A stretch of DNA of 64,000 nt from Thioalbus denitrificans (GTDB lineage: Bacteria > Pseudomonadota > Gammaproteobacteria > DSM-26407). Positions 66 to 23,183 of the stretch are shown here, piece by piece. The number at the start of each line of letters is the position of its first letter. Within the stretch, counting starts at the first letter, position 1. Both the position numbers and the translations under genes were made by a program. The notes beneath the pieces were generated by a model. The model worked only from the letters and a program-made list of their open reading frames with translations. It ran no database searches and had not been told where the DNA came from. The stretch lies in NCBI RefSeq assembly GCF_003337735.1, contig NZ_QPJY01000006.1, forward strand, positions 1 to 64,000, in the 5' to 3' direction.

Positions 66-103
66 ACTGAGTTGCACTTACGAGTTGAATTCAGGGAGTA
101 TTA

Positions 104-284
104 ACCGCAGATTACGCTGATTTACGCGGATTTTCTCCGTGGCAAGGGAAGCGCACGTCGACAATCCCGCAATGGAGCGTGGGAACGCCATCCCGGATGG
201 CAGAAGACCCTCTCGCCGCGCAGCCAGATCCCCTTGGCCTGCAAAACCCGGGGAAAATCCATGTAAATCAGCATAATCTGCGGT
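104..284. repeat. inverted-pair repeat element A
   Basis: The arms at 104-138 and 250-284 are inverted copies, 35 bp each with four mismatches, built on the word CGCAGATTACGCTGATTTACG. They enclose about 110 bp of unrelated GC-rich DNA. The same word recurs in the element at 20827-21109. No gene is visible in 1-330; this element and the hairpin at 13-65 are all I can see there. Confidence 0.75.
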
Positions 285-330
285 CAGGATCTTTTTGCCT
301 TTCTGCTTGAATTCGTGGCCAGCACTTCCT

Positions 331-20054: not shown

Positions 20055-20491
20055 CCCCCCTCCTCCGCCATCGGCTCCACGTGCAGGTGGGATTCCGTCA
20101 ACTCACCCTCGGGCGTCAGCCAGGCATCGATTGATATCACCCGGCAGGAAGCCTCGGGGACCGGCAATGGCGGCGTCAGGCGGGCGGAGACGCGAATCAG
20201 CCGCAGGCGGCCGTCCATTCCATAGACGTAGGCCACCTGGGTGGCCTTGAGCCGGTCGATGGTCATGACCGTATCGAACAGGATGAGCTCGCCCCGCATC
20301 ACCATGCGCTCGAACAGCCGCGCCGCGGCGGCCACGGACAACTGCCGCGGAGGCACCAGATCCAGGGTCCCGGCCGGCGGAACCGCCACTGCGTCTCCCG
20401 ACCCAAACGGCGCAGCGGGGCCCATCGCGGCCGCGGCGCTGCCAGCCAGCAGCGACCACAGCAGGGTCAGGGCAAGACCACGGAGCGGCAC
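20051..20491 (-). CDS. uncharacterised secreted protein
   Basis: A 146-residue protein from the GTG at 20491, with a clear signal peptide (LRGLALTLLWSLLAGSAAAA). I do not recognise the family. The mature part has an alpha/beta look, with ARLFERMVMRGELILFDTVMTIDR and a C-terminal strand-rich segment. It begins 7 bp after the Lrp-domain gene and its TGA overlaps the GTG of the SDR remnant, so the three form one transcription unit. The sequence between the stop of the preceding gene and any earlier start codon has no signal peptide, which supports this start. Confidence 0.65.
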   Translation of the reverse strand: MPLRGLALTLLWSLLAGSAAAAMGPAAPFGSGDAVAVPPAGTLDLVPPRQLSVAAAARLFERMVMRGELILFDTVMTIDRLKATQVAYVYGMDGRLRLIRVSARLTPPLPVPEASCRVISIDAWLTPEGELTESHLHVEPMAEEGG

Positions 20492-20498
20492 GATACGC

Positions 20499-20774
20499 TC
20501 AGAGGCCGAGGGAGAACATCTGTTCGAGGTCGTGCCGGGAGTAGGCGCGGAAAGCCAGCATGGTCTCCGTCTCACGGATGCCCTCGATGCGGGCGATGTG
20601 CTCGGTCACCAGGTCGGCGAGAGCCTCGTTTTCATGCACCCGCACGATGGCCACCAGGTCGTAGGGACCGCTCACCGAGTAGGTTTCCGAGATCTCCGGC
20701 CGCTCCGCCAACTGCTCGGCGACCTCGTTGACCTTCCCGTGCTCCACCCGCAACATCACGATTGCCGTCAGCAT
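20499..20774 (-). CDS. stand-alone Lrp/AsnC ligand-binding domain protein
   Basis: A 91-residue protein equal to the RAM (Lrp/AsnC effector-binding) domain alone: MLTAIVMLRVEHG, then VSGPYDLVAIVRV and IEGIRETETMLAFRAYS. There is no helix-turn-helix, so it cannot bind DNA itself. Such proteins form dimeric or octameric alpha/beta barrels; some relatives bind amino acids. The start is the ATG at 20774. It is the first gene of the minus-strand unit that ends in the SDR remnant. Confidence 0.87.
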   Translation of the reverse strand: MLTAIVMLRVEHGKVNEVAEQLAERPEISETYSVSGPYDLVAIVRVHENEALADLVTEHIARIEGIRETETMLAFRAYSRHDLEQMFSLGL

Positions 20775-20826
20775 GTCTGGCACTCCTCTTGCGCACTGCT
20801 TCACTCTTGGCGACGCTTTCAGAACC

Positions 20827-21109
20827 CACCACGAAGGCACGAAGGACACGAAGAAGACAAAAAAGATCGATATCCGCAGATTACGCGGATTACGCAGATT
20901 GGTTGGTAAAAACCAGGATCACCGTCGGACAACCCGGACCGGGTTGTGCCAGTTCAGCACCTGCGCCGCCAATGACGGCTGGCGCATGGTCCCTTGACGC
21001 GAGCGGCCCGGTGGCACGGGCCAGCCGTGCAAATCCGTGAATCTGCGTAATCTGCGTAATCTGCGGATAATCAGAATCTTTTCTTCGTGTCCTCCGTGCC
21101 TTCGTGGTG
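20827..21109. repeat. inverted-pair repeat element B
   Basis: The arms at 20827-20900 and 21040-21109 are inverted copies of about 70 bp, mostly identical. Each arm is a composite of two words: CACGAAGGCACGAAGGACACG (outer) and tandem CGCAGATTACG (inner). They enclose 139 bp of unrelated GC-rich DNA. The inner word is the same as in the element at 104-284. It fills most of the 370-bp gap between sucD and the Lrp-domain gene. Confidence 0.85.
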
Positions 21110-21144
21110 AAGGTATTGTGTCATTCAAGGTTTTCAGGTTGTAC

Positions 21145-22017
21145 TTATCCGCCCAGCGCGGCGGCCACGGCCCGGCCCATTTCGGCCGGGGAGCGGACCG
21201 TGTGCACGCCCGCCGCCTCCAGCGCAGCGAACTTCTCCGCGGCGGTGCCCTTGCCGCCGGCGATGATGGCCCCGGCATGGCCCATGCGCTTGCCCTTGGG
21301 CGCCGTGACGCCGGCGATGTAGGAGACCACCGGCTTGGTGACATTGGCCTTGATGAAGGCCGCGGCCTCCTCCTCGGCGGTGCCGCCGATCTCGCCCACC
21401 ATGATGATGGCCTCGGTCTGCGGGTCATCCTGGAACAGCCGCAGGGCGTCCACGAAGTTGGTGCCGGGAATCGGGTCGCCGCCGATGCCGATGCAGGTGC
21501 TCTGCCCGAGGCCGGCGTCGGTGGTCTGCTTCACCGCCTCGTAGGTGAGCGTGCCGGAGCGGGACACGATACCCACCTTGCCCGGCTGGTGGATGTGGCC
21601 GGGCATGATGCCGATCTTGCACTCCCCGGGGGTGATGATGCCGGGGCAGTTGGGGCCGATGAGACGCGCCTCGTGCTGGTCCAGGTAGGCTTTCACCTGG
21701 AGCATGTCGAGGGTGGGAATGCCCTCGGTGATGCAGACGATGAGCTTGATGCCCGCCTCGGCCGCCTCGATGATGGAGTCCTTGCAGAACGGGGCCGGGA
21801 CGTAGATGACGCTGGCGTCGGCGCCGGTGCTCTCCACCGCGCCACGCACGGTGTCGAACACCGGCAGGCCGAGATGGGTGCTGCCGCCCTTGCCGGGGGT
21901 CACGCCGCCCACCATCCGGGTGCCGTAGGCGATGGCCTGCTCCGAGTGGAAGGTGCCCTGCTTGCCGGTGAATCCCTGGCAGATGACTTTCGTCTCCTTG
22001 TTGATCAGTACACTCAT
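21145..22017 (-). CDS. sucD: succinate-CoA ligase, alpha subunit
   Basis: A 290-residue alpha subunit of succinyl-CoA synthetase, which interconverts succinyl-CoA plus ADP/GDP and succinate plus ATP/GTP in the TCA cycle. The N-terminal CoA-binding Rossmann domain ([17 protein letters not shown]) is followed by the ligase domain with the phosphorylated His in [10 protein letters not shown]. The start overlaps the sucC stop by 4 bp, giving equal expression with the beta subunit. Confidence 0.98.
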
Positions 22018-23183
22018 GCCGCACCTCCCACCGCTGCAACGATCTTCTCGGCGGCGTCGGTAAGGCCGTTGGCCGCAATCAGGTTCAAACCGCTCTCCTC
22101 CAGTCTCGAAGCGCCGAGCTCGGCGTTGGTGCCCTCGAGGCGCACCACCACCGGCACCTTGACGCCCACCTGCTCCACCGCGCCGATGATGCCGTCGGCG
22201 ATGAGGTCACAGCGCACGATCCCGCCGAAGATGTTCACCAGCACCCCCTTCACCTTGGGGTCGGAGAGGATCAGCTTGAAGGCCTCGGTGACCCGTTCGG
22301 TGGTGGCGCCGCCGCCCACGTCGAGGAAGTTGGCGGGGCTGCCGCCGTGGAGCTGCACCAGGTCCATGGTCGCCATGGCCAGGCCCGCGCCGTTGACCAT
22401 GCAGCCGATGTCACCGTCCAGGGCCACGTAGTTGAGGTCGAACTTCTTGGCGTGGACCTCCTTCTCCTCCTCCTGGCTGATGTCGCGCATCTCCTGCAGC
22501 TTGGGCTGGCGGTAGAGGGCGTTGTCGTCGATGTTCACCTTGCCGTCGAGACACAGCAGGTTGCCCTCGGCGGTGACCACCAGCGGGTTGACCTCCACCA
22601 GGCTGAGATCGCACTCCACGAACAGCCGCACCAGCCCCCCGAGCAGCCGGGTGAACTGCTTGATCTGATCGCCTTCCAGCCCCAGGCCGAAGGCCAGCTC
22701 GCGGCACTGGTAGGGCAGCAGGCCGAGCATGGGGTCGACGGTGGTCCTGAGGATCTTCTCCGGCGTTTCCTCGGCCACCTTCTCGATCTCCATCCCCCCC
22801 TCGGTGGAGACCATGAGGGTTACGCGGCGGCTGGCGCGATCCACCACGGCGCCGACGTAGAGCTCGCGGGCGATATTGCTCACCTCTTCCAGCAGCACCG
22901 CGTTCACCGGCTGGCCGTTGGCGTCGGTCTGGTAGGTGACCAGCCGGGTGCCGAGCAGCGCTTTGGCCACCTCGGCGGCCTCCTCCGCGCTGCCGACCAG
23001 CTTCACGCCGCCGGCCTTGCCCCGGCCGCCGGCGTGCACCTGCGCCTTGACCACCCAGCGGTCGCCGGCCAGGTTGGCCAGCGCCGCGCGCACGTCCGCC
23101 GCGTCATGGACCACGGCACCGGCGGGTACCGGCATGCCGTAGCCGGCAAAGAGTTGTTTAGCCTGATATTCGTGTAGATTCAT
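22014..23183 (-). CDS. sucC: succinate-CoA ligase, beta subunit
   Basis: A 389-residue beta subunit. An ATP-grasp domain occupies about residues 1-235 ([12 protein letters not shown] start, [16 protein letters not shown] nucleotide site) and a CoA-ligase domain the rest ([17 protein letters not shown]). Length and start match the family exactly. It follows lpdA by 106 bp and overlaps sucD. Confidence 0.98.

Follow-up and report, generated by a model that had tools for sequence, protein, structure and literature searches.

The window, i.e. the whole stretch of 64,000 nucleotides analysed here, corresponds to contig C6:1-64000 of the 4.14-Mb genome of Thioalbus denitrificans and contains a composite inverted repeat located, according to our reading of the ORFs, between an AsnC/Lrp-like regulator gene and sucD. 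A first reading of the sequence only had described this repeat as two words in mirror order around non-repetitive DNA, and a repeat search of the window recovered this structure, with arms at 20827-20900 and 21040-21109 and a core of 139 nt. Each arm was shown to encompass an outer (B) and an inner (A) word, the inner arms being 30 nt each and 139 nt apart, and the outer arms 29 nt each and 225 nt apart (Table 1). The inner 17-mer (allowing up to two mismatches) was found six times in the window, as compared with 0.03 expected occurrences, and the outer 16-mer four times, as compared with 0.42.

Table 1. Features of the composite repeat and of a second element within the window
Feature	Positions	Strand	Evidence or remark
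Left outer arm (B word) CACCACGAAGGCACGAAGGACACGAAGAA, three CACGAAG iterons	20827-20855	+	97% complementary to 21081-21109
Purine-rich spacer, outer-to-inner arm	20856-20870	+	Other copies have similar A/G-rich spacers, differing in length
Left inner arm (A word) TATCCGCAGATTACGCGGATTACGCAGATT, three CGCAGATTA iterons	20871-20900	+	97% complementary to 21040-21069
Core, 139 nt	20901-21039		Single copy genome-wide
Right inner arm (A word)	21040-21069	-	Repeat search
Spacer, inner-to-outer right arm	21070-21080		Sequence
Right outer arm (B word)	21081-21109	-	Repeat search
Second element, inner-word (A) arms only, 123-nt core	103-285		Inner-word matches at 106 (+) and 266 (-)

The RNA fold of the focal element reaches z = -15 relative to shuffled sequences, a value that is due to its arms. 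A search against Rfam returned no family at the gathering score; a single sub-threshold match (21299-21368) lies outside the element. Two open frames on the forward strand (20241-20909 and 21037-22431) run across the arms, and their translations contain the spurious repetitive peptides RRHEGHE and LRNLRNLR. Frames running through such arms represent an annotation hazard, as they yield spurious repetitive proteins (HEGHE..., LRNLRNLR...).

Dispersal and iteron composition of the repeat

Genome-wide counts were obtained from searches and from extracted stretches. The 12-mer CGCAGATTACGC of the inner word (at most one mismatch) occurs 348 times in the genome, as compared with four occurrences of its reversed control, and the arms match at least 160 genomic places, predominantly as inverted pairs, with about 40 pairs measuring ~260-290 bp from end to end. 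At least 40 copies of the composite were identified, always in mirror order (outer+, inner+, core, inner-, outer-), and these coexist with elements bearing only the inner or only the outer word. Among the longer stretches we counted 20 complete B+A+A-B- composites, nine A-only pairs, two B-only pairs and a few single words. All pairs in the stretches read were oriented + then - (B+ A+ A- B-, A+ A- or B+ B-), and the reverse order was never observed; the words therefore do not occur mostly singly and in random orientation, which is the pattern that the sequence-only reading had named as contradicting it.

The left half of the composite (outer word, spacer and inner word) was found 63 times in this genome and 27 times in that of its sister species, with no matches to the reversed controls, and was absent from 54 other members of the class. 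The only named matches elsewhere were in the gammaproteobacterial MAG STE_91, which is apparently the sister genome, and in Kouleothrix aurantiaca (Chloroflexota), where the same nested layout encloses a very short core. No homologues of the whole element were found on plasmids. The copies are intergenic, none of 40 composites being located inside a long open frame. Target-site duplications, for which the initial reading had proposed a search, were not found, as the flank pairs consistently exceeded shuffled pairs at no offset or length (n = 40), nor was a clean empty site of a composite found. In the sister genome, the focal site is occupied by unrelated sequence of about the same length.

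The two words had been considered unrelated, yet both proved to be variants of a single 9-bp iteron class, with CACGAAGGA and CGCAGATTA each matching C-R-C-R-R-A-K-N-N. In the focal element, the iterons of the inner arms follow a 9-9 spacing, while the same units in the outer arms are spaced 8-9. The number of iterons differs between orthologous arms (CACGAAGGA copies, sister genome), and the arms within one element are partly matched (arm covariation, p 2e-4). No paper was found for the word sequences in a literature search that covered sources other than subscription journals and preprints.

A separate repeat of 272 bp with near-perfect terminal inverted repeats (ACTAGTGTACTGCGTCACTCTTGGAGG) was observed at L133:13500-13771 (G000 C1:732499-732770). 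It is present in at least 12 copies (84-99%) in the sister genome and is apparently absent at the orthologous site G001:C279:4496-4602.

GxxExxY genes between cognate arms

In this genome, GxxExxY is represented by three full-length genes and two fragments, and the gene-bearing elements match TIGR04256/PF13366 PDDEXK_3 at E-values of 8e-43 and 3e-39. One full-length gene (C1:721731-722078; L030) is bracketed by the outer (B) word (29-nt arms, 100%), another (C2:734509-734850; L032) by arms of a variant of the inner (A) word, and the third by arms of a third word. As in the other members of this proposed family, the inverted arms of the focal element each consist of about three 9-bp CRCRRAKNN iterons, and its arm words (for A, as a variant) bracket GxxExxY genes in the same genome.

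This association extends to other genomes. The best inverted repeat around a GxxExxY gene scored at least 15 in 24 of 29 loci, as compared with none of 114 control intervals of the same length taken from the same loci; same-locus intervals were used because different genomes share arm words, which renders a mixed-locus control uninformative. Of 299 genomes in the phylum, 52 contained the generic three-iteron pattern and 11 its reversed form. The pattern was borne by 34 of the 57 genomes with GxxExxY, versus 18 of the 242 without (Fisher p 6e-17, uncorrected for shared ancestry); the reversed-pattern control of this co-occurrence gave p 0.04. Furthermore, the arm word was shown to track the GxxExxY subfamily (Mantel r 0.57, none of 5000 permutations being as high, uncorrected for ancestry), a match that could also arise if gene and arms were passed on together, in the absence of any recognition.

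Arms were present at three of seven plasmid-borne GxxExxY loci (Bacteroides, Bernardetia and Gemmatirosa), and no GxxExxY gene was confirmed in viral contigs. On the Gemmatirosa plasmid, each flank of the gene (L189:1300-1400 and 1880-1975) holds a short but complete palindromic element with CGCAGAGG iterons and a tiny core. The GxxExxY gene of a Sphingomonas plasmid (L190) lies between fabD and fabG without detectable arms and is perhaps a domesticated or arm-less copy. No description of repeats flanking GxxExxY genes was retrieved from the same literature, in which two papers used the term GxxExxY, each a single time.

The alignment of GxxExxY proteins contains invariant residues D67, E77-x-K79 and Q91-xxx-Y95, which we take to be the motif set of RecB, lambda exonuclease and Cas4. 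A sequence search retrieved no solved relative. The AlphaFold model (pLDDT 94) was found by Foldseek to be nearest to LHK-Exo, Cas4 SSO0001 and lambda exonuclease, albeit weakly (best E 0.005); as all E-values are at or above this figure, the predicted model is only suggestive of a lambda-type exonuclease/Cas4-like PD-(D/E)XK fold.

Exchange and inversion of cores, and nesting of elements

Cores measure about 118 ± 15 nt across copies. Among 41 cores, 15 were assigned to one loose family and eight to three small groups, the remaining 18, with the focal core among them, being unlinked, so that the kinship of cores raised in the first reading applies to part of the set and not to the focal copy. 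Homology scores between the cores of A-only elements and those of composites were marginal (best 43, versus a shuffled maximum of 35). A shared structured core was rejected, the RNA structure signal of the cores being only weak (mean z -0.9, versus -0.35 in flanks).

For comparison with the sister species, 18 shared loci were picked for a recognisable composite in the sister genome. The core was the same at 14 of these, inverted at two (L066 and L074) and different at two (L053 and L140). At L140, it represents a near-identical inverted copy of an element located 4 kb away (294/323 aligned positions over the whole stretch, including flanks); the sister species carries another core at this locus, and the element 4 kb away is itself unchanged between the species (348/350). 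At the same-core loci, cores differ at 2.7% of sites, as compared with 2.9% in adjacent and 4.8% in more distant flanks, and eight of these 14 cores are identical between species. Since core divergence is close to that of the adjacent flanks, cores differ between loci by exchange or age, and not by fast point mutation. The earlier suggestion of a cruciform with a protected core is therefore retained in part: the arms could, from their sequence, form a cruciform, but the core was exchanged or inverted at four of the 18 shared loci.

Nesting was observed at L034 (about 1330-1830), where an A-word element encloses a broken GxxExxY element that has arms of its own, composed of the CGCCAAG word; the same GxxExxY element occurs without A arms at L033 (about 1500-1900). 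Given this nested element and the existence of A-only and B-only elements, the mirror order of the two words requires only nesting followed by spread of the composite, and we conclude that this order follows from one inverted-pair element lying inside another. The initial view that mirror order is hard to explain by slippage alone is thus upheld, with nesting accounting for the order and both orientation counts and reversed controls opposing slippage.

Origin of the repeat and comparison with known systems

The repeats constitute a dispersed family of nested inverted-iteron elements with cognate arms at GxxExxY genes and with core inversion and exchange between arms. The suspected non-autonomous element has accordingly gained substance: conserved arms recur in at least 40 copies scattered over intergenic DNA, some copies at different loci have their cores in common, and elsewhere in the genome such arms enclose a nuclease gene. 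We favour, at a probability of about 0.55, the reading that the repeat is a non-autonomous element and belongs to a GxxExxY-associated family operating in the manner of REPIN/RAYT, with a nuclease replacing the transposase. The focal feature would then be a B-word (CACGAAGG) inverted-iteron element carrying an A-word inverted-iteron element, together forming a composite of ~280 bp that is now dispersed, and it would belong to a wider family whose gene-bearing members hold one small PD-(D/E)XK nuclease gene (GxxExxY) between like arms. The cognate nuclease may recognise its own iterons, either as duplex or as the hairpin/cruciform of the inverted pair, and may cut at the recognised iterons. Repair of the break from another element would copy or invert the core, and gene-less copies would be mobilised in trans, in the manner proposed for REPINs and RAYT transposases.

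Several observations run counter to this reading, i.e. the lack of target-site duplications and of a clean empty site, and the presence of arms in the 18 of 242 genomes without GxxExxY. In addition, IVS four-helix genes possess analogous arms and do not encode nucleases, so that such arms need not require one. Core inversion and exchange could represent ordinary homologous recombination between repeats. Such recombination, combined with a lost transposase, remains the main rival: the repeats would have spread in the past and now be inert, with RecA-dependent recombination acting between long similar arms and GxxExxY genes as passengers. This account is consistent with the missing duplications and empty sites, with the 14 of 18 shared loci that are unchanged between species, and with core substitutions resembling those of nearby intergenic DNA; it is nonetheless judged rather unlikely, as it leaves unaccounted for both the cognate arms of GxxExxY genes in many genomes and phyla and the tracking of protein subfamily by arm word.

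A long hairpin acting on transcripts (as a bidirectional terminator or RNase III site) and kept by selection would fit the very stable fold, the intergenic location and the partly matched arms within an element, but the lack of an Rfam family, the weakly structured and exchangeable cores and the absence of the composite pattern from 54 class relatives render it improbable. REPINs moved by a RAYT (Y1, REP-associated tyrosine transposase) share the layout of intergenic inverted pairs in many copies, and the genome does contain seven Y1_Tnp genes. These RAYT loci, however, have their own inverted repeats (GGGGTC.../GGGGACA...), a three-iteron match occurs at only one of the seven, unpaired and ~0.9 kb from the gene, and the arms consist of three 9-bp iterons, not of a 20-40 bp REP hairpin; with none of the seven loci bracketed by A or B words, RAYT-mediated mobilisation was rejected as very improbable. 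The chance assembly of simple tandem words by slippage has a practically negligible probability: the variable iteron number of orthologous arms would agree with it, but it was rejected because the stretches read contain at least 20 complete composites in mirror order and not a single pair in reverse order, and because the reversed-pattern controls are near zero.

The GxxExxY-associated reading proposes an identity for a widespread and unexplained intergenic repeat, and a context for the GxxExxY family. If it is right, small nuclease-only elements are able to spread, nest and swap contents in bacterial genomes without a transposase. Annotators should read GxxExxY or four-helix genes flanked by inverted repeats as element genes. 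In a broader and more tentative form, which we hold with less than even confidence, GxxExxY proteins and their 9-bp iteron arms would make up an undescribed class of minimal mobile or homing systems spanning several phyla. Gene-less inverted-repeat elements would then spread, nest and swap their cores under the action of a PD-(D/E)XK nuclease, and not of a transposase, and the four-helix IVS genes, whose arms are built of 7-bp words, would constitute a parallel class.

Among known systems, REPIN/RAYT (PMC3116915) likewise consists of intergenic, non-autonomous inverted pairs in many copies, with several independent sets per genome, a corresponding protein gene placed between repeats of the same kind, and co-divergence of protein and repeat. 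Here, by contrast, the protein is PD-(D/E)XK nuclease-like instead of a Y1 transposase, the arms are three tandem 9-bp iterons, the cores of ~118 nt are exchangeable, and elements nest. Bacterial MITEs (PMC10969869) are similarly short, gene-less, intergenically dispersed and bordered by terminal inverted repeats, and the focal element does possess terminal inverted repeats without a gene. The focal family differs in that no parent insertion sequence was found, target-site duplications are missing (n = 40), an IS-derived interior common to the copies is lacking (the focal core is unique), and a second inverted pair is nested subterminally.

The 23S rRNA intervening sequences with an S23/four-helix ORF (PMC4990558) resemble the gene-bearing members in that a small ORF is placed between complementary termini, that of Coxiella having a 28-bp terminal stem (PMC4990558). 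Among PF05635 four-helix (23S IVS protein) genes of the phylum (L194-L218, L037 and L038), inverted tandem-word arms were observed in 12 of 22 loci, versus none of 88 controls, with words mostly of a 7-bp type, e.g. (TAGGCAG)n or (GTGATGG)n. Such arms thus differ from the 9-bp iterons described here, the IVS ORF encodes a four-helix bundle, and an IVS of the classical type resides in the 23S rRNA, from which RNase III excises it (PMC4990558).
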